The notes below the pieces were generated by a model. The model had not been told where the DNA came from, did no database searches, and saw nothing but the letters and a program-made list of their open reading frames with translations. Positions 11,615-46,889 of a DNA stretch of 64,000 nt are shown here, piece by piece. Position 1 is the first letter of the stretch; each line of letters begins with the position of its first letter. Position numbers and translations under genes: made by a program. This DNA is from Pseudobutyrivibrio sp. MD2005 (GTDB lineage: Bacteria; Bacillota; Clostridia; Lachnospirales; Lachnospiraceae), in NCBI RefSeq assembly GCF_000621865.1, contig NZ_JHXE01000017.1:1-64000 (forward strand), written 5' to 3'.

Positions 11615-12595
11615 TTACTTTCCTGCATACTTCATAATTATTAATTCTACGGCAAGCTTTTCATCGAGCTTGCCGGTTTTAAATTGTTCTTCAAAATCTG
11701 CTGAATCCTTAAGCAGCGCTGATATTTCTTTATCAGAGAAATTGTTTGAAAGCTGCATTACTCGCCTTACTGCAAAATCAGGCATTCCCATTTTAGAAGC
11801 GATTGTAGATGCATTATTTCCAAAGCTTAAAAGCTCTTTGATGACCTTCATCTGTCTAAACTGACGGATAATCATAGAAAGAATACGCATCGGCGGTTCT
11901 TTCGCCGATAGCATATCCTGATACAAATCCATAGTTTTTGCCATATCTTTTGCTGAAATTGCATTTAGCATATCAAATATCTTTGTCTCAACTCTGGCAA
12001 CACATACAGCATTGACATCTTCTACGGTAATCTGATTTCTATCCCCTACATAAGAAATAAGCTTATCAAGCTCTCGGGACATGTTATCCATGGAATCATG
12101 GGTCATAATCAAAAACTGGGACCAGGCATTTTCTTTCATTTGCTTCCCTGCGGCATTTGCCTTAGCGCCTACCCACTTTTTTAGCACACTTTCATTAGGC
12201 ATATTGATTTCGATGGCCCTATCACAGGCTTTCGCAGATTTATAAAGCTTACCCCTCTTATCAGCACTAGCCTCAACAAAAATAAAAATAGTAGCCTCTG
12301 AAATATGAGAAAGATAATCGCCAAAGTCTCCCGGCATTTTCTTTCCAAAGCCTGTGTTCTCAAGCAAAATCACTCTATGCTCAGCAAAAAATGGCATCGT
12401 CTCTGCCAACTCTATTATCTGTGGTGTATCAATATTATCATTATCAAACTTGGAGAAGTTCATATTATCGCCCTCATTAACAAGAGCCTTTATAAGCTTA
12501 TTCTTATACTGAAGCTTAAGATATTCTTCCTCCCCATAAAGTAAATATAAGTTTTGAAATTGTCCGCTTTTTATATCTTCATCAATTCGTCTCAT
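11615..12595 (-). CDS. holA: DNA polymerase III delta subunit
   Basis: 326 residues, matching HolA of Firmicutes. The N-terminal AAA-like region begins MRRIDEDIKSGQFQNLYLLYG and lacks a P-loop, as expected for delta, which is the wrench that opens the beta clamp. A helical C-terminal collar domain follows. It is part of the clamp loader with DnaX and HolB, which are not in the window. No Shine-Dalgarno precedes the ATG. TATAAT on the minus strand (12608-12603) is 7 bases upstream and is formed from the 3' arm of the preceding gene's terminator. Confidence 0.92.
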   Translation of the reverse strand: MRRIDEDIKSGQFQNLYLLYGEEEYLKLQYKNKLIKALVNEGDNMNFSKFDNDNIDTPQIIELAETMPFFAEHRVILLENTGFGKKMPGDFGDYLSHISEATIFIFVEASADKRGKLYKSAKACDRAIEINMPNESVLKKWVGAKANAAGKQMKENAWSQFLIMTHDSMDNMSRELDKLISYVGDRNQITVEDVNAVCVARVETKIFDMLNAISAKDMAKTMDLYQDMLSAKEPPMRILSMIIRQFRQMKVIKELLSFGNNASTIASKMGMPDFAVRRVMQLSNNFSDKEISALLKDSADFEEQFKTGKLDEKLAVELIIMKYAGK

Positions 12596-40148: not shown

Positions 40149-40762
40149 AAAACTAATTGCTCCCCTCCCGGTAATTTTGTAGGACGGCTTATTAATACTG
40201 CTGGAGGCTGTCCAATGAGGTGTGATTTTGCGAATATTACTGTTTTTCTTATGGACCAAATTTATGCATTAAACATGTGTCTTGTTGCGGAATGAACTGT
40301 ATGAAAAAATGTGTTTAATTTGGCGGACACTGAAGTTTTCAATGTACTTCTTAGACTAAGGGGACTTGGTTTCATATTACGTTTGCTAAGTAACATGACA
40401 AAGCAGGTTTTGCATATCTAGGTACCGTGCTCCATGTGACGTCCTGTCACTTACGCACTTGCGCTGCCATCCGTGGCAGCGCATACCTATATATTGCAAA
40501 ACCTGCTTTTATGTTACTAAGCGCGCTCCAAAATCAACCAAGTCCCCTTCAGCCTAAGAAGTACAAATAGTATTAAGCTGTGTGTCCGCCACCCAAAAAC
40601 CTTTTTCAAAATTGTACAGGCCTGCAAAAGACACATGTAAATAACAGATGCATAAATGGTCCATTAGAAAAACGCAATATTCATGCAATACACCCCAGCG
40701 GGCAGCCACTAGCAGCGTGTATAAGCCGGCCTATTATACAGTGCTTGGGAGTAATTAGTTTT
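40149..40762. repeat. Giant imperfect palindrome, copy A
   Basis: A 614-bp inverted repeat centred near 40455, filling the gap between the PilZ gene and folD. The outermost arms are 40149-40164 and 40747-40762 (15 of 16 pairs plus one G-T). Further in are the pairs ATGGACCA/TGGTCCAT (40251-40258 with 40657-40664), GGCGGACAC/GTGTCCGCC, GTACTTCTTAG/CTAAGAAGTAC and GGGGACTTGGTT/AACCAAGTCCCC. The inner stem is at 40401-40424 with 40485-40509. The tip holds two smaller hairpins (40436-40450 and 40461-40482). It overlaps the last codons of folD. No coding potential that I credit. The core is repeated as copy B at 46231-46889. Confidence 0.93.
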
Positions 40763-41606
40763 GGCGGCTGGCTGCTTCCACTACATGCTTAACCAATATG
40801 CTTGTTGTGACACCACCAACACCACCAGGCACTGGAGTGATAGCATCAACTATATCTACGACTTCGTCGGTCCTAACATCGCCACAAAGTTTGTTTTTCT
40901 CGTCATTCCAACTGATACCAACGTCAATAACAGTTTGGCCTTCTCTAAGATATTCCTTGCCAACGCTTTCCATCTGTCCAGAGGCTACCACTACAATATC
41001 TGCATCCTTAGTAATTGCTGGAACATCCTTTGTTTTGGTGTGACAAATTGTAACAGTGGCATTTTCGTGCATTAAAAGCATGGCAACTGGTCGACCTATA
41101 ACAAGGGAGCGGCCTATTACTGCAACTTTTTTGCCAGCGACTTGTACATCATAGTATTTCAAAATTTCCATGGCTGCCTCAGCTGTGCATGGAGAAAATC
41201 CAAGCTTAGTGTTTGTGAAAACTCCAGCTAGTGACAAATCTGTACATCCATCAACGTCCTTGTCAGCTGAAAGCATTTTTCTAGCTTTTTCGCCATCTAT
41301 ATGCTTAGGTAATGGTCTAAACATAAGGATTCCATGGATATTTATATCGTTATTTAATTTATCTAGTGTGGCAAAAAATTCATCTGCTGATACATCTGCT
41401 GGTAATGCTGTTACTTGAACTTTTACACCTACCTGCTCGCATCTTTTGATTGCGCCGCGCTCATAAGATAAATCATCTGCCCTATCTCCAACACGAAGAA
41501 TTCCAAGAGTAGGATTTATCCCTCTATCATTTAATGCTTCAACCTCTTTTGATAATTTATTATTTAAAGCCTCTACGACTTCTTTTCCCTTAAGTAATTT
41601 TGCCAT
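40755..41606 (-). CDS. folD: Bifunctional methylene-THF dehydrogenase/cyclohydrolase
   Basis: 283 residues. It has YERGAIKRCEQVGV with the catalytic lysine, VDGCTDLSLAG, and the Rossmann segment VAVIGRSLVIGRPVAMLL, then TPVPGGVGGVTTSIL near the C terminus, all typical of FolD. It interconverts methylene-, methenyl- and formyl-THF. It lies 11 bases after fchA, an enzyme of the same pathway. Its stop lies inside the outer arm of palindrome A, which probably serves as its terminator. Confidence 0.96.
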   Translation of the reverse strand: MAKLLKGKEVVEALNNKLSKEVEALNDRGINPTLGILRVGDRADDLSYERGAIKRCEQVGVKVQVTALPADVSADEFFATLDKLNNDINIHGILMFRPLPKHIDGEKARKMLSADKDVDGCTDLSLAGVFTNTKLGFSPCTAEAAMEILKYYDVQVAGKKVAVIGRSLVIGRPVAMLLMHENATVTICHTKTKDVPAITKDADIVVVASGQMESVGKEYLREGQTVIDVGISWNDEKNKLCGDVRTDEVVDIVDAITPVPGGVGGVTTSILVKHVVEAASRQN

Positions 41607-41617
41607 TGTGTACTCTC

Positions 41618-42232
41618 CTATAATCTATTCCATACGTCCTCGTATATTTCTCTTGCAAGAACAGTGTATTTTGAAACAAGCTCACTAACCTCAGAATCAA
41701 GAGCATCGGCATACTGCCTATCTTTCATGGATTTTGTATTTATCTTTACATTTACAGCAGCCCCTTTTATAGCTCCCTCTAAAAGAGCTGAGCCTGTAGC
41801 TGCATCACTAATCATGATTACAGAGCCTTTATCAGAAAAATCTCTTTGAAGCTCCACTGCAGAACATGCAAGCTTTAAGATTTTAAAAGGAACCTTTGCT
41901 GCATCCTTCAAGCACTTTTCCATTATTTCATCTCTGCCAGGCTCCTCCTTTGGAAGCGAATAAGCTTTTGATAATGGTTCGAAAGCAACAGCATCCTCAT
42001 CGATGCATTCAAGCAAAGCCAGACGAATTTCATCAGCCCTTTTCATCAAATCCTTTATGTCATCCTCTACGTTAAGATATTTTTTCTTTCCAACTGTAAA
42101 TTCACCAACCATGCTTCCTAAAGCTGTGCCTATCGCAGCTGCCAAAGCGCTTGCTCCGCCACCACCTGGTACAGATTTCTTTGCAGCAAGCTCACTTGTA
42201 AAATCTTTAACGCTTATGTTCACCAAACTCAT
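41618..42232 (-). CDS. Cyclodeaminase/cyclohydrolase family protein (FchA-like)
   Basis: 204 residues from MSLVNISVKDFTSELAAK; AGGAG is 8 bases upstream and the longer frame extension has none. It carries the family's glycine-rich VPGGGGASALAAAIGTAL (about 21-38) and is all-helical, matching the FTCD_C/FchA family (PF04961). Members act as methenyl-THF cyclohydrolase or formimino-THF cyclodeaminase. Next to folD the cyclohydrolase role in one-carbon metabolism is likeliest. The pair probably forms an operon whose promoter lies before 42232. Confidence 0.88.
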   Translation of the reverse strand: MSLVNISVKDFTSELAAKKSVPGGGGASALAAAIGTALGSMVGEFTVGKKKYLNVEDDIKDLMKRADEIRLALLECIDEDAVAFEPLSKAYSLPKEEPGRDEIMEKCLKDAAKVPFKILKLACSAVELQRDFSDKGSVIMISDAATGSALLEGAIKGAAVNVKINTKSMKDRQYADALDSEVSELVSKYTVLAREIYEDVWNRL

Positions 42233-42266
42233 ATCATTATCTCCTAATACATTAATATAAACCAAA

Positions 42267-42302
42267 ACTCCAAAGCCTTGAAATACATCAAAGCTTTGGA
42301 GT
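42267..42302 (-). terminator. Terminator of the 56-residue gene
   Basis: ACTCCAAAGC (42267-42276) pairs with GCTTTGGAGT (42293-42302). On the minus strand it is followed by TTTGGTTT. Confidence 0.75.
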
Positions 42303-42307
42303 AATAA

Positions 42308-42478
42308 TCATTTAATATAGTCAAATATTGTCATCTGGTTGGCATCAGAAACCAATGTGTCATATTGCTTTTGTTCTTCTTCTGTCAACTCTCTGTTAAA
42401 AACATAAGTCTCCTGTCTGATTGTACCATCTAAATCAAAGTACAACTGACGGAAATCCACGTTGTCATTTTCAAACAT
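42308..42478 (-). CDS. Small acidic protein of 56 residues, unknown
   Basis: Reads MFENDNVDFRQLYFDLDG and ends QMTIFDYIK before a TGA. It is acidic, with no membrane segment or signal, and contains a helical charged stretch (ELTEEEQKQYD). A weak AGGA lies 10 bases upstream. It has a terminator directly behind it, which supports its being a gene rather than a chance frame. It sits between the diguanylate cyclase and fchA genes. Family not recognised. Confidence 0.6.
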   Translation of the reverse strand: MFENDNVDFRQLYFDLDGTIRQETYVFNRELTEEEQKQYDTLVSDANQMTIFDYIK

Positions 42479-42550
42479 TATTCTTTGTCCTATCTAAGTT
42501 TTGCCCTAAAATCAAGGTCATAGACAATTTTACCATACTATACAATATTT

Positions 42551-44230
42551 TCAACGTGATTCTCGTCGGTCAAAACCTGTATTCTCGTAGAATTTACTTT
42601 TATCTTTATACATTTCATCATCTGCTATTTCTAGTAGCATGTTTATGTTTTCATTAGGATAATCCCTATAGCTGGCATAACCCACGCCAGCATAAAGTTC
42701 ACTAACAAGTGTTCCATGCCAACATTTCATTGCATTCTTAAAGTTTGCAATAGCTGCTTCTATCTCTTTTTTAGATGCAACAAGTGAAATAGCAAATTCG
42801 TCGCCACCTACACGGCAAATATTAGCATCTGGAAAATCTATAAAAGCCGATTCTAAACATCTGGCGGTAGCAATAATCAATTCATCGCCAGCCTCATGCC
42901 CAATCGTATCGTTGTAATACTTCAAACGATTTGTATCCACCATTACAATAGCAAAATCTTCCGGCATATTGTTCTCATCATAGTTATCCAAAACATGATA
43001 AAATTTTCGTCTATTTCCAAGCTTTGTAAGTTCATCGGAAAAAGCATATATCTTCGTCTGAGCCAGCTCACGTTCCTCTTTTATACTATTGGAAATACGC
43101 TGATAAATCAGACATATCTGCGCAACCACATAAATATGTAAATCTAACAGAAATACCGAATCATAATTTGATGTAACATTTCCAATAAATAGCATAAGAG
43201 CTGCTAAAGACAGTATGAAAAATACAAGGTTTGCCAAAGATACTGCCACATAGCTGTATTTATCTCTATGGAATATAATTGTTTTTATCGAATATAAAGA
43301 TACACATGCCAACACAATCATCGCAAGAACCTGGGCTAAATATATTAAATCACCCCAATTAATAATACCAACTAACGCTAGTACTAATGCTATGACACCA
43401 ACAATTGTAATAACATTATCTATAATGATTGAGACCTTATTATTATCCCGCTCATACAAATACATCTGCATTCTGAAGAAATATATAGGCATCACTAAAA
43501 AGGCCACGATATTAACAATTGAAAATCCAACAATATGTCCAAACACAATGTATGGCAATCTACAGTCGTTTATAAGCCACTGTGCGGAGAATACAGCAAA
43601 CAATCCACAATACAAAAGGGCTTTAAAAATCTTTTTTCTTTTCTTAAGAATATTTTCCCCTACAAAAGTGGAAGCAATGATAATCTCAACAACACCAATA
43701 ACTGTAAATGAAGAATAAACAATCATGGTCATAATGTTGCTCTTCAATACTTGTGATGCATATTCTCCACGAGTAGTGATAAAGACTTGAGTAATAGAAG
43801 CCCCGTAAATCTCCTTTTGCAGAGTCATGGTTATAGTTATCGGCTTTCCGGAATACTCAGTTCTAAGCTTAAACCAAATCTCTTTCTTTCCAGCATCTGT
43901 GGACACACCAGCAAAAACATTGTCTTTAGACTTTTCGATAGATTCACCATCAACAAAAATCTCATAATTGTCATAGTAAACCCACATAACAAGCATCTGA
44001 TCTGTGAATACTTTAGGCAACGTGTTTGTGATAGTAAATGTCTCCTGGCTATCACCATAGGGAAAGGCGACAGCATGTCCTTCCAACTGCCATCCGTCAT
44101 CATAAGGAATATAATTTTCCCCATACACGTTATCCAAGTCGTTGGAAAAGCAAAAGCCTACAACCATAGATATTATGATTAACAGCATAAAAATCGCTGA
44201 GAATATTTTTCTAAATCTACTCCCCGTCAT
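42551..44230 (-). CDS. Membrane-bound diguanylate cyclase
   Basis: 559 residues. A first membrane helix (12-30) is followed by an extracytoplasmic beta-rich domain (about 35-160), then about seven helices (175-380) in the manner of 7TMR receptors. The C-terminal GGDEF domain has DELTKLGNRRKF and an intact RVGGDEF (GGDEF at 475-479). The position of the inhibitory I-site (RxxD) reads DFPD, so product inhibition there is probably absent. It makes c-di-GMP in response to an outside ligand. GGGGAG precedes the ATG. Confidence 0.92.
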   Translation of the reverse strand: MTGSRFRKIFSAIFMLLIIISMVVGFCFSNDLDNVYGENYIPYDDGWQLEGHAVAFPYGDSQETFTITNTLPKVFTDQMLVMWVYYDNYEIFVDGESIEKSKDNVFAGVSTDAGKKEIWFKLRTEYSGKPITITMTLQKEIYGASITQVFITTRGEYASQVLKSNIMTMIVYSSFTVIGVVEIIIASTFVGENILKKRKKIFKALLYCGLFAVFSAQWLINDCRLPYIVFGHIVGFSIVNIVAFLVMPIYFFRMQMYLYERDNNKVSIIIDNVITIVGVIALVLALVGIINWGDLIYLAQVLAMIVLACVSLYSIKTIIFHRDKYSYVAVSLANLVFFILSLAALMLFIGNVTSNYDSVFLLDLHIYVVAQICLIYQRISNSIKEERELAQTKIYAFSDELTKLGNRRKFYHVLDNYDENNMPEDFAIVMVDTNRLKYYNDTIGHEAGDELIIATARCLESAFIDFPDANICRVGGDEFAISLVASKKEIEAAIANFKNAMKCWHGTLVSELYAGVGYASYRDYPNENINMLLEIADDEMYKDKSKFYENTGFDRRESR

Positions 44231-44250
44231 AGACCACTCCCCGAAAAATA

Positions 44251-45171
44251 TTAAATCTCTATGCCAAATTCACTAGGTAAAAATCTTGGACAAACATTGT
44301 CAGAAGTAACGATAACTGATGCAGCAAGTGTTGCACCAATCTCGCAAGCTTCCTGAATTGTCTTGCCATAAGTAAGGCCGATTGTAACGCCAGCAAAGAA
44401 TGAGTCTCCTGCTCCTGTTGTGTCTTTTACATCAACCTTACGTGCAGGAACAAAACCTGAATTTCCATTAATATCTGCATAAACAGCACCTGCACCACCT
44501 AAAGTAACAATCATCTTGCTAATCTGTGCACCCTGAATCTTCTTTGAAAGAATCTCCTGCATCTCCTCTGGAGTCTTATCTGAATAATCATCCATGAAAA
44601 GAATGCCAGCCTCCTGTTGATTACATACGAAGCACTCAACATTCTTAAGGAAATCACGTCTTTCTACTGCTATACTCATATTTGAAACTGCAGCATAAAC
44701 CTTTAAATTATACTTTTCTGCATATTTAAAGATTCTCTTAATAGAATCCTTTTCCATATCTATCTCAAGGGCGATACTATCAGCATCCTTAAAAATCTCG
44801 TCTCCCTGTTCATCAAGGATATTATTAATCTCAGATAAATCCGGTCTCTTTGAAATAGAAGCTACCACATCACCATGATTATCAAATACAGCAAGCCACT
44901 TGCCCATTCCATCAGGTGTACGACGTACAAATCTTGTATCAACCTTATGATTATTAAGCTTTTCAAGCACTCCTGTACCGATTCCGCTCTCATCTACAAG
45001 ACTAACAAATGTAGGACGAAGCTCAACATTTGCAATATCTTCAACTACGTTTCTACTAACGCCGCCATGAACCTCTTCTACTGTTCCAACATTTCTTCCA
45101 GCTGGAATATAGCTAGATGTTGAATGACCTTTAATATCAATAAATACTGCTCCAAGAACAACAATTCCCAT
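44251..45171 (-). CDS. PfkB-family sugar or nucleoside kinase
   Basis: 306 residues. It has the PfkB N-terminal glycine-rich segment (HGGVSRNVVEDIANV, about 35-50) and the C-terminal catalytic signature DTTGAGDSFFAGV with the base Asp. The family includes ribokinase, fructokinase, adenosine and pseudouridine kinases; the VVLGAVFIDIKG start and VGTVEEVHGGVSRN are close in style to the pseudouridine-kinase-like branch, but the substrate remains uncertain. GGAG is 10 bases upstream. Twenty bases separate it from the diguanylate cyclase gene. Confidence 0.87.
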   Translation of the reverse strand: MGIVVLGAVFIDIKGHSTSSYIPAGRNVGTVEEVHGGVSRNVVEDIANVELRPTFVSLVDESGIGTGVLEKLNNHKVDTRFVRRTPDGMGKWLAVFDNHGDVVASISKRPDLSEINNILDEQGDEIFKDADSIALEIDMEKDSIKRIFKYAEKYNLKVYAAVSNMSIAVERRDFLKNVECFVCNQQEAGILFMDDYSDKTPEEMQEILSKKIQGAQISKMIVTLGGAGAVYADINGNSGFVPARKVDVKDTTGAGDSFFAGVTIGLTYGKTIQEACEIGATLAASVIVTSDNVCPRFLPSEFGIEI

Positions 45172-45300
45172 TTTATAAATACTCCAATCTTTGAAAAATC
45201 ACTCAAGTGATTATAACACGCTAATTTATAATATCAAATGTTTGTGTATTTTTTATTATAAGAATTTGATAGAATTCAGGATAGAAAAGAGGAATTTACA

Positions 45301-46233
45301 ATGATTAAAGTAGACTTAATTACAGGATTTTTAGGAAGTGGCAAAACCACATTCCTTAAATTATATGCCAAATATTTTATGGATCAGGGCTTACGCATCG
45401 GAATCCTTGAAAACGACTACGGTGCCGTAAATGTAGATATGCTTCTATTAAACGAACTCAGAGGTGACAACTGCGAACTAGAAATGGTTGCTGGTGGCTG
45501 CGACGCTGCTTGCCACAAACGTCGCTTCAAAACAAAGCTCATATCAATGGCCATGAGTGGCTACGACCGCGTAATAATCGAGCCCTCAGGTATATTCGAC
45601 GTAGACGAATTCTTCGATACCATCAGAGACGAGCCACTAGACAACTGGTACGAAATAGGTAACGTAATCACCATCGTGGATGCCCGCCTGGAAGACACCC
45701 TTTCCTCAGACTCTGACTTCTTTTTAGCCTCCCAGCTAGCTAACGCCGGCACTATCCTTCTTAGCCGAACTCAGCTCACTGATGCCGCTCAAATTGAAGC
45801 CACCAAGCAGCACCTAAAAAATGCCGCTGAAAAGTCCAACTTAAGCATAGACATCGATGCCCTAATCACCACCAAAGACTGGGCCGACTTCTCCACCACC
45901 GATTTAGAAGCCATCGCCAACTGCGGCTACGCTACCCGCTCCTACATCAAGCGAATTCACATGGACAACAGCGACTTCGAAACAGTATACTTCCTCGAAG
46001 TTCCAATGAAAAAGTCTCACATTCAAGATAAAATCAAGACCCTCATGTCCGACTCATCCTTCGGCTCCATCATGCGCGCCAAGGGATTTTTCCATGACGA
46101 GGGCCAGTGGTATCAGTTCAATGCCACCCAAAACGAATTCGAGCTTAGCACCATCCCTGTTGGCCAGGCCGTATTCATCGTAATCGGCGAAGCCCTAGCC
46201 AAAGACGCCATCCGCACCTTTATCGAAGGCTAG
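45301..46233 (+). CDS. G3E-family GTPase (CobW/UreG-like)
   Basis: 310 residues. Walker A GFLGSGKTT (9-17) and a cysteine pair in VAGGCDAACHKRR, near the place where CobW/ZNG metallochaperones have CxCC. ENDYGAVNVD is the switch-like segment, and the base-recognition region is poorly defined. It may insert or deliver a metal; no partner is near. Codons in the last two thirds are strikingly C-ending (GCC, ACC, TTC, TAC), unlike the neighbours, which may mean high expression or transfer. The TAG stop is the first three bases of palindrome B. GAGGA precedes the start. Confidence 0.85.
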   Translation: MIKVDLITGFLGSGKTTFLKLYAKYFMDQGLRIGILENDYGAVNVDMLLLNELRGDNCELEMVAGGCDAACHKRRFKTKLISMAMSGYDRVIIEPSGIFDVDEFFDTIRDEPLDNWYEIGNVITIVDARLEDTLSSDSDFFLASQLANAGTILLSRTQLTDAAQIEATKQHLKNAAEKSNLSIDIDALITTKDWADFSTTDLEAIANCGYATRSYIKRIHMDNSDFETVYFLEVPMKKSHIQDKIKTLMSDSSFGSIMRAKGFFHDEGQWYQFNATQNEFELSTIPVGQAVFIVIGEALAKDAIRTFIEG

Positions 46234-46889
46234 CCCGGCCCTAGGGCCCGCCCCCATAATCAGTCTTGCCCGCCCCAAATATCAGTTACGCCACCGCTAG
46301 GGCCTCTGTGCTGGCACCTTCTGGGGGCTGCTAACAATTTTGCGAATATTTTTAGTTTTTTCAATGGGCAAAATTTAGGCAAAGCACATGTGTCTTGTTG
46401 CGGGATGAACCGTTTGAAAAAAATGTTTTCTAAGTGGCGGACACTGAAGTTTTTATTGTACTTCTTAGGCTAAGGTGACTTGGTTTCATATTACGTTTGC
46501 TAAGTAACATAACAAAGCAGGTTTTGCATATATAGGTACCGTGGCACATTCAACATCGTGTTTTAAGTGACCACTTGCGCTGCCGTCCTTGGCAGCGCAT
46601 ACCTATATATTGCAAAACCTGCTTTTATGTTACTAAGCGCACTTCAAAATCAACCAAGCTCACTCTTAGTCTAAGAAGTACATTTTAATTTAAATATTTG
46701 TGTCCGCCAATTGAAAACATTTTTTCAAACTGTACAGACCTGCAAAAGACACATGTAAATAAGCGTGCCTAAATTGCCCATTAGAAAAACAAAATATTCT
46801 TGCAATGTTAGCAGCCCCCAGACGGTGCCAGCACAGTGGCCCTAGCGGTGGCGTAGTTTTTACATGGGCGGGCCCTAAGGGCCGGGCTA
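46231..46889. repeat. Giant imperfect palindrome, copy B
   Basis: A 659-bp inverted repeat centred near 46560. The outermost arms are 46231-46253 and 46866-46889 (GC-rich, 23 pairs, one bulge). The next arms, 46289-46336 and 46806-46853, pair at 46 of 48 positions. Inner pairs match copy A in place: ATGGGCAA/TTGCCCAT, TTTAGGCA/TGCCTAAA, GGCGGACAC/GTGTCCGCC, GTACTTCTTAG/CTAAGAAGTAC, and the inner stem AAGCAGGTTTTGCA/TGCAAAACCTGCTT. The tip hairpin is GCGCTGCC/GGCAGCGC (46577-46598). The ends are exactly the stop codons of the convergent GTPase and LeuC genes. A strong barrier for both transcripts is likely. Confidence 0.95.

Follow-up and report, generated by a model that had tools for sequence, protein, structure and literature searches.

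Two palindromes of more than 600 bp each lie within the first 64,000 nucleotides of contig NZ_JHXE01000017.1 of Pseudobutyrivibrio sp. MD2005 (this whole stretch, read on the forward strand, is the window of our analysis), and the question they raise is what such structures are, how they reached their sites and whether they could serve the cell. The original prediction, made from the sequence letters, had described them as copies A and B of one inverted repeat with a shared core. We consider it reasonably probable that both are older copies of an element resembling a miniature inverted-repeat transposable element (MITE) with the RNA TwoAYGGAY as its core, in which one arm has been copied onto the other outward to the stop codons of neighbouring genes, and which would sequester CsrA if transcribed. 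The parts of the two copies are as follows.

40149..40762, minus strand: copy A, whole palindrome, 614 bp, between folD and a pilZ-like gene
46231..46889, minus strand: copy B, whole palindrome, 659 bp, from the stop TAG of a cobW-like gene (46231-46233) to the stop TAG of leuC (minus strand, 46887-46889)
40225..40690, minus strand: copy A core, 466 bp, conserved and common to 33 full-length genome copies
46337..46806, minus strand: copy B core, 470 bp, 83% identity to the A core
40149..40224, no strand: copy A outer arm on the pilZ-gene side, mirror of the folD end (AAAACTAATTRCTCCC)
40691..40762, no strand: copy A outer arm on the folD side, holding the folD stop codon 40755-40757
46231..46336, no strand: copy B outer arm on the cobW side, TAG CCCGGCCC-TAGGGCCCGCCC, mirrored on the leuC side
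46807..46889, no strand: copy B outer arm on the leuC side, in minus-strand reading TAG CCCGGCCCTTAGGGCCCGCCC

A repeat search and an alignment of A with B bore out two related, imperfect giant palindromes at the positions first proposed. The common core was likewise real, although at 466 bp in A and 470 bp in B it was slightly longer than the predicted 450 bp or so. Arms recovered by the repeat search were 40343-40378/40530-40565 and 40306-40330/40582-40606 in A (72% each), and 46231-46254/46866-46889 (79% complementary) and 46274-46336/46806-46868 (87%) in B, while direct repeats of 144, 87, 77, 68 and 41 nt with 81-95% identity joined A to B. Folded as single strands, A reached −283 kcal/mol (z −20.6) and B −382 kcal/mol (z −32.7); none of 20 shuffles came as low in either case, which speaks against a chance structure. 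The last codons and the stop of folD fall inside palindrome A, and neither A nor B contains an open reading frame (ORF) of at least 80 aa.

The original prediction knew of no described family with this shape, and for the centre of the palindromes that view had to be abandoned. Rfam family RF01731 (TwoAYGGAY) matched the central ~160 bp of both copies on the minus strand, well over its gathering score, which rules out a new RNA family at the core. The matches and their hairpins are these.

40374..40533, minus strand: copy A TwoAYGGAY RNA (RF01731), 81.7 bits against a gathering score of 43
46488..46649, minus strand: copy B TwoAYGGAY RNA (RF01731), 81.3 bits against a gathering score of 43
40461..40482, minus strand: copy A hairpin 1, GC stem with the hexaloop ACGGAT (40469-40474), the form of a high-affinity CsrA/RsmE site
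40436..40450, minus strand: copy A hairpin 2, loop AGGAC (40441-40445), CsrA-like and one base short of ANGGAN
46585..46590, minus strand: copy B hairpin-1 hexaloop, AAGGAC (ANGGAN)

The tip hairpin noted earlier (GCGCTGCC/GGCAGCGC) is present and is the first hairpin of TwoAYGGAY. Where the family has two hairpins with AYGGAY-type loops, copy A carries ACGGAT and a shortened AGGAC, and copy B carries AAGGAC alone, the GGA of its second loop having been lost. A scan of the window at gathering scores returned RF01731 twice, two tRNAs and nothing else, and RF01731 was the sole family found in A at E values up to 1; ROOL and GOLLD, which had been suggested for comparison, and all other Rfam families are ruled out by these scans. 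The Rfam model spans only ~160 bp of the 614-659 bp palindromes.

TwoAYGGAY was described by Weinberg et al. in 2010 and marked as not cis-regulatory (available text of PMC2864571), and binding by CsrA had already been proposed in 2014 (available text of PMC4333381). In the accessible portions of the literature naming TwoAYGGAY we found no mention of the full-length palindrome, of mobility, of target duplication or of mirrored arms; excerpts on CsrA offered no link to a miniature inverted repeat combined with a small RNA (sRNA), and those on palindromes in Pseudobutyrivibrio held nothing relevant. What stands in the window is therefore a known RNA family, one with a published proposal for its function, that takes a new form here: it is the core of a giant palindrome that is mobile and has mirrored arms. 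It resembles RF01731 in its central 160 bp, in a hairpin 1 with an ANGGAN loop and in its Clostridia host. It differs in that the 168 positions of the model are here nested in palindromes of ~600-800 bp with ~50 mobile copies, in that the second loop of B is without GGA, and in that Rfam types the family as Cis-reg whereas the copies here have no fixed strand relative to genes.

The host genome (3.09 Mb, 26 contigs) contained 49 RF01731 matches over the cut-off, and matches were present in 27 of the 29 genomes of the genus, MD2005 included. Among named genomes, the cobW-like protein has its best matches in Pseudobutyrivibrio, at no more than 75% identity (MD2005 itself may be missing from that set), which places the window in this genus or close beside it. 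TwoAYGGAY was also found in 17 of 120 genomes sampled from the family and in 36 of 391 sampled from the class (27 of these 36 over the cut-off), both with stricter filters at which weak matches are lost. The core had no blastn match in plasmid and phage records, which rules out a plasmid or phage origin. The 466-bp core aligned end to end in 33 of the 49 MD2005 copies; 19 of these were 94-97% identical to the consensus and are here called young, and the other 14, at 74-90%, old.

An assembly artefact or chimera was considered as well. Runs of N interrupt two further copies at the centre of the palindrome or close to it (L093, G000:C6:18686-19184; L096, G000:C3:154152-154755), which would suit an artefact, and these runs are probably assembly gaps due to the hairpin. 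Against it stand the 49 copies, whose arms and flanks are particular to each, and further assemblies of the genus in which this structure recurs. Because of the 49 genome matches and the matches in 27 of the 29 genus genomes we reject an artefact, which we regard as next to impossible.

Decay forms were also seen in the collection. At L099 (~1180-1260, G000:C3:117780) a remnant holds pieces of both arms while the core is gone, and at L094 (~1170-1310, G000:C1:234296) half a copy stands directly after a terminator-like hairpin. In a genome of another genus (G086; L185-L189, L192) 12 of the 21 TwoAYGGAY copies retrieved are arranged as six divergent pairs of neighbours, a few hundred bp apart and with a private stem for each copy.

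The ends of the copies and the sequence just outside them showed that the family moves. The younger copies carry GTTACCATTCACAG, or a sequence close to it, at both of their ends, which lie 603-654 bp apart, and closeness to the consensus correlates with well-kept ends (Spearman 0.69). Among the 16 of the 33 copies in which both end scores were at least 12, an exact 8-bp direct duplication lay just outside the ends in four, a fifth matched at 7/8 and eleven at 5/8 or less; when the left flank of one copy was paired with the right flank of another (n=240), there was no exact duplication and a single one at 7/8. The 49 dispersed copies are without coding capacity. This family is a dispersed, non-autonomous, MITE-like mobile element of Pseudobutyrivibrio, as the GTTACCATTCACAG ends and the 8-bp duplications above the mismatched controls indicate. 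New copies insert with an 8-bp target duplication and with arms of ~70 nt ending in GTTACCATTCACAG.

Exact matches to the 14-nt end number 21 in the MD2005 genome, and four of the 28 other genus genomes have a single one each, among them one with a full element and one with a 67-bp mini form. This mini form (L159 1501-1567, sister species) is without the core and apparently stands right after a stop codon; it has GTTACCATTCACAG at one side and the near match CTGTGGGTGGTAAC at the other. A different interspersed repeat made of AAAAGGTATAACC-like units was seen near lone GTTACCATTC-type ends (L095 ~900-1150; L098 ~1200-1400).

Relatives lack an insertion at the sites of A and B. A pilZ-like gene follows folD after 43-141 nt in 24 of 27 relatives, and leuC follows cobW after 11-127 nt in 14 of the 15 relatives that keep the pair (29 examined); at those 56 relative loci the core had no blastn match. 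Copy A retains GTTACCATT on one side, and A and B are older copies whose end marks and duplication have been lost. In a single-contig relative (G120; L155/L157), one of the two genus genomes with no TwoAYGGAY match, the cobW-like gene has an internal stop.

The outer arms behave quite differently from the core. Over 45 nt in the 33 copies with an end-to-end core, on which all arm statistics of MD2005 are based, the two arms agreed at 0.884 within a copy and at 0.555 between copies (shuffled 0.491). The core showed the opposite pattern, with 0.859 between copies and 0.745 between its own two sides. Divided by age, the arms of young copies gave 0.896 within and 0.628 between copies (core 0.938), and those of the 14 old copies 0.866 and 0.509 (core 0.808). 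In 21 copies of another genus, 28-nt stems gave 0.816 within and 0.572 between copies, against 0.712 for the model region and 0.501 for shuffles. Nine young copies have outer ends of two types that can be told apart by eye, and in four of them (L030, L064, L065, L069) the order of these ends about the core is reversed; this reversal suggests that the arms may recombine, or that the core may invert between them.

The outer edges of the palindromes stand at the ends of genes. We computed edges for 48 of the 49 MD2005 copies, one at a contig end being left out, and for 18 of 19 loci elsewhere in the genus. The median distance from edge to gene 3' end was 2 nt (55 flanks) in MD2005 and −1 nt (21 flanks) in the genus copies, and that from edge to gene 5' end was 90 nt (40 flanks) and 72 nt (14 flanks), respectively. 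Twelve copies lie between convergent genes, and in 8 of them the 45-nt stretches that follow the two stops scored above all 132 cross-locus pairs. The bases after both stops were identical over 23/23 positions at L029, over 20/21 at L073 and over 20 plus one gap in B. In copy B the cobW TAG and the leuC TAG are each followed by CCCGGCCC(T)TAGGGCCCGCCC; the outermost part is 79% complementary, and the automatic edges end 34 and 13 nt before the stops are reached. Copy A has a mirror image of the folD end AAAACTAATTACTCCC on its opposite side, and this end differs from the folD end in relatives.

These arm, edge and mirrored-stop patterns are explained by copying of one arm onto the other, and it is from them that we infer this mechanism. 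After insertion the outer arms would turn over fast but jointly, as one is overwritten with the sequence of the other. Template switching (quasipalindrome correction) at the replication fork is the likeliest route, and by it the palindrome would stay nearly perfect while its arm sequence drifts. It would also spread outward across the spacer until it meets coding sequence, and so stop at stop codons. Quasipalindrome correction, in which one arm is copied onto the other, is described in the accessible part of PMC8794818; in that source and in the parts of PMC8604942 and PMC7202029 available to us, inverted-repeat arms are likewise homogenised by copying, which can create and keep perfect stems. 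The difference is that the present case comprises dozens of natural 600-bp palindromes in one genome, reaching out to stop codons. The coding palindromes of Nematomorpha mitochondria are comparable as long perfect or near-perfect inverted repeats touching coding sequence, but according to the available text of PMC6649704 they lie inside coding genes, whereas the palindromes here stop at genes.

Two other accounts of the edges have to be set against arm copying. In the first, the element inserted anywhere between genes, its arms were its own from the start, and deletion of the spacer then brought it up to the stops. Bacteria have a deletion bias that such a history would fit, and some genes may now use a stop within the arm, the folD end that differs from relatives being a candidate. 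At L029, L073 and B, however, the stops stand at mirrored places and identity ends at the stop, and because independent deletions would not end at mirror positions we think spacer deletion unlikely. In the second account, the palindromes are selected bidirectional gene-end elements, such as terminators or BIME-like protectors of mRNA ends, whose pairing is kept by compensatory selection. The edges at gene 3' ends would be expected of such elements, as would the terminator-like hairpins that were seen by eye in both arms of L073 and L059 and in one arm of L010 and L022. At L010 and L022, however, the mirror image of the hairpin is without a T run and stands upstream of a gene, and the palindromes end ~90 nt short of gene 5' ends. 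Identical tracts as long as those after the stops of two genes are also hard to reach by single compensated changes. Since the stops of two different genes stand at mirror positions and identity ends there, deletion and compensatory selection are both disfavoured, and a gene-end element appears decidedly improbable.

What the core may do was approached through its loops and through the distribution of csrA. According to the available text of PMC4005645, an ANGGAX hexaloop on a stem is a high-affinity CsrA/RsmE site, and the hcnA complex, whose structure has been solved, has the loop ACGGAU. Copy A has this loop too, and the MD2005 genome encodes a CsrA close to those of solved structure. Loop 1 reads CANGGANG in 48 of the 49 MD2005 copies; two such motifs are kept by 11 of the 49 and, among 27 copies from two other genera, by 23. 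We counted GGA hairpin loops directly, because the covariance model built from the copy alignment kept only the first hairpin in its automatic structure. At least one such loop was found in 48 of 49 MD2005 copies and in all 27 copies of the two other genera, and at least two in 21 of these 27; shuffles held a mean of ~0.5, and ~10% of them held two or more. When 32 copies from 16 genomes and 13 genera were aligned, the two GGA loops accounted for 9 of the 17 columns that were invariant or nearly so, and for 4 of the 5 that were fully invariant.

The csrA gene was present in all 17 TwoAYGGAY genomes of the family sample, against 66 over the cut-off in all 120 (hypergeometric 1.3e-5). In the class sample it was present in 31 of the 36 genomes with the RNA and in 125 of all 391 (Fisher 2e-12), in 26 of 28 against 110 of 318 when only good genomes were counted, and in 23 of the 27 whose RNA match passed the cut-off. 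In neither sample was kinship corrected for. Of the 12 class-sample families with the RNA, eleven hold a genome with both RNA and csrA. The idea of CsrA binding is that of PMC4333381, as far as its available text goes, and the co-occurrence is new support for it. From the loops and this co-occurrence we infer that the core may act as a CsrA decoy: if transcribed from the minus strand, it would fold into a very long hairpin, whose CsrA-type GGA loops (one in B, two in A) would bind and sequester CsrA as CsrB and RsmZ do. The likeness to CsrB/CsrC/RsmX/Y/Z lies in GGA within ANGGAN-form hairpin loops on a stem; those RNAs carry several sites each, whereas one or two are predicted per copy here, and dosage would come from the many genomic copies instead. 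In 2014 these CsrA-sequestering sRNAs were known only in Gammaproteobacteria (PMC4333381, accessible part).

The single copy near csrA, among the 30 csrA loci scanned, is in MD2005 (L071 1246-1983 / L209), between csrA with its terminator-like hairpin and a flaG-like gene; the 29 other scanned loci had no copy within 1.5 kb. A conserved csrA-linked sRNA gene is ruled out by this count, which excludes the further csrA-like genes of some genomes, and the one copy found is an insertion of the same kind as the others. In another genus (G042), a second csrA-like gene stands 1.2 kb from a TwoAYGGAY copy (C54:10614-10763 and 11975-12139).

Several observations weigh against a mobile, arm-copying CsrA decoy. 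As to mobility, A and B themselves have neither ends nor duplication, the GTTACCATTCACAG ends being those of the family. Neither the 14-nt ends in MD2005 (one mismatch allowed) nor those in 28 genus genomes (exact) revealed a partner transposase in a search by end motif in which no transposase family was sought, which is why we call the element no more than MITE-like. As to the arms, those of young copies already differ between copies (0.63, against 0.94 for the core), and simple arm copying leaves this divergence unexplained. The gene ends used for the edges came from a simple ORF caller (at least 90 aa), and in the other genus, where the palindromes have a median length of 235 bp, the edges are not near 3' ends (median 381, 17 flanks).

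As to the decoy, a promoter scan gave no convincing promoter, with one weak match in A and two in B against shuffle means of 2.6 and 1.2, respectively, and a terminator scan brought nothing further. Beside tandem genes the copies show no strand preference, with 15 on the same strand as the genes and 15 on the opposite one; this split also rules out a 3'-untranslated-region-derived or cis-regulatory RNA. At least two GGA loops occur in 10 of the 49 MD2005 copies, little above the shuffles; hairpin 2 has the CANGGANG or CAGGANG motif in 12 copies and AACGGACT in 6 more, and its loop is without GGA in 31 of the 49, B included. Flagellin, found in 67 of the 120 family genomes, is present in all 17 that bear the RNA, so the co-occurrence with csrA is confounded with flagella, and the flagellin control could not separate csrA from motility. 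Five of the 36 RNA-bearing class genomes have no csrA match, two of them at least 95% complete, and TwoAYGGAY lies within 1.5 kb of csrA at just that one locus in 30.

Much of this would be expected of a purely selfish MITE, in which the core is kept because some transposase needs its structure and the GGA loops are relics or are recognised by a protein during transposition, with no RNA function. Its many copies, its target duplications, the random strand, the missing promoter and the second loop that lacks GGA in 31 of 49 MD2005 copies all agree with such an element. It would not lead one to expect that more than half of the invariant or nearly invariant columns (9 of 17), and all but one of the invariant ones, fall in the two GGA loops, and co-occurrence with csrA in 11 of 12 class-sample families would be surprising for a random transposon. 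We therefore hold the purely selfish element to be a serious but rather doubtful alternative. A MITE-like element with arms copied outward and a core that may act on CsrA thus stays our preferred reading. Its boldest form, put forward tentatively and at less than even odds, is a self-enlarging mobile palindrome, a transposon that multiplies CsrA decoys and whose arms are copied over 3' spacers, even supplying neighbours with stop codons, until coding sequence is reached.

Among known repeats, the nearest kin are bacterial MITEs and the repetitive extragenic palindromes and their composites (REP/BIME/REPIN), which are likewise short, non-coding, dispersed palindromes with a terminal motif and no gene, and in the case of MITEs with a target duplication. 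The present palindromes are much longer, hold a structured and conserved RNA core and have arms that are private yet mirrored, and no transposase partner was found at their end motif. REP sequences are palindromes of 20-40 nt that go with TnpA-REP, and A (614 bp) and B (659 bp) are far bigger than REP or BIME, as originally predicted.

If this reading is true, an RNA family that has been curated in its own right forms, at least in Pseudobutyrivibrio, the core of a transposon, which would change how its copies and its regulatory label are read. The Clostridia would gain a candidate CsrA-sequestering RNA whose dose is set by transposon copy number. Palindromes of 600 bp are usually unstable in cells, and the finding raises the question of how so many survive in this one. 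In one genome, palindrome growth by arm copying would also have been replicated naturally dozens of times, each time with a visible limit at coding sequence, so that the origin and upkeep of pairing in long stems could be studied in a living bacterium.

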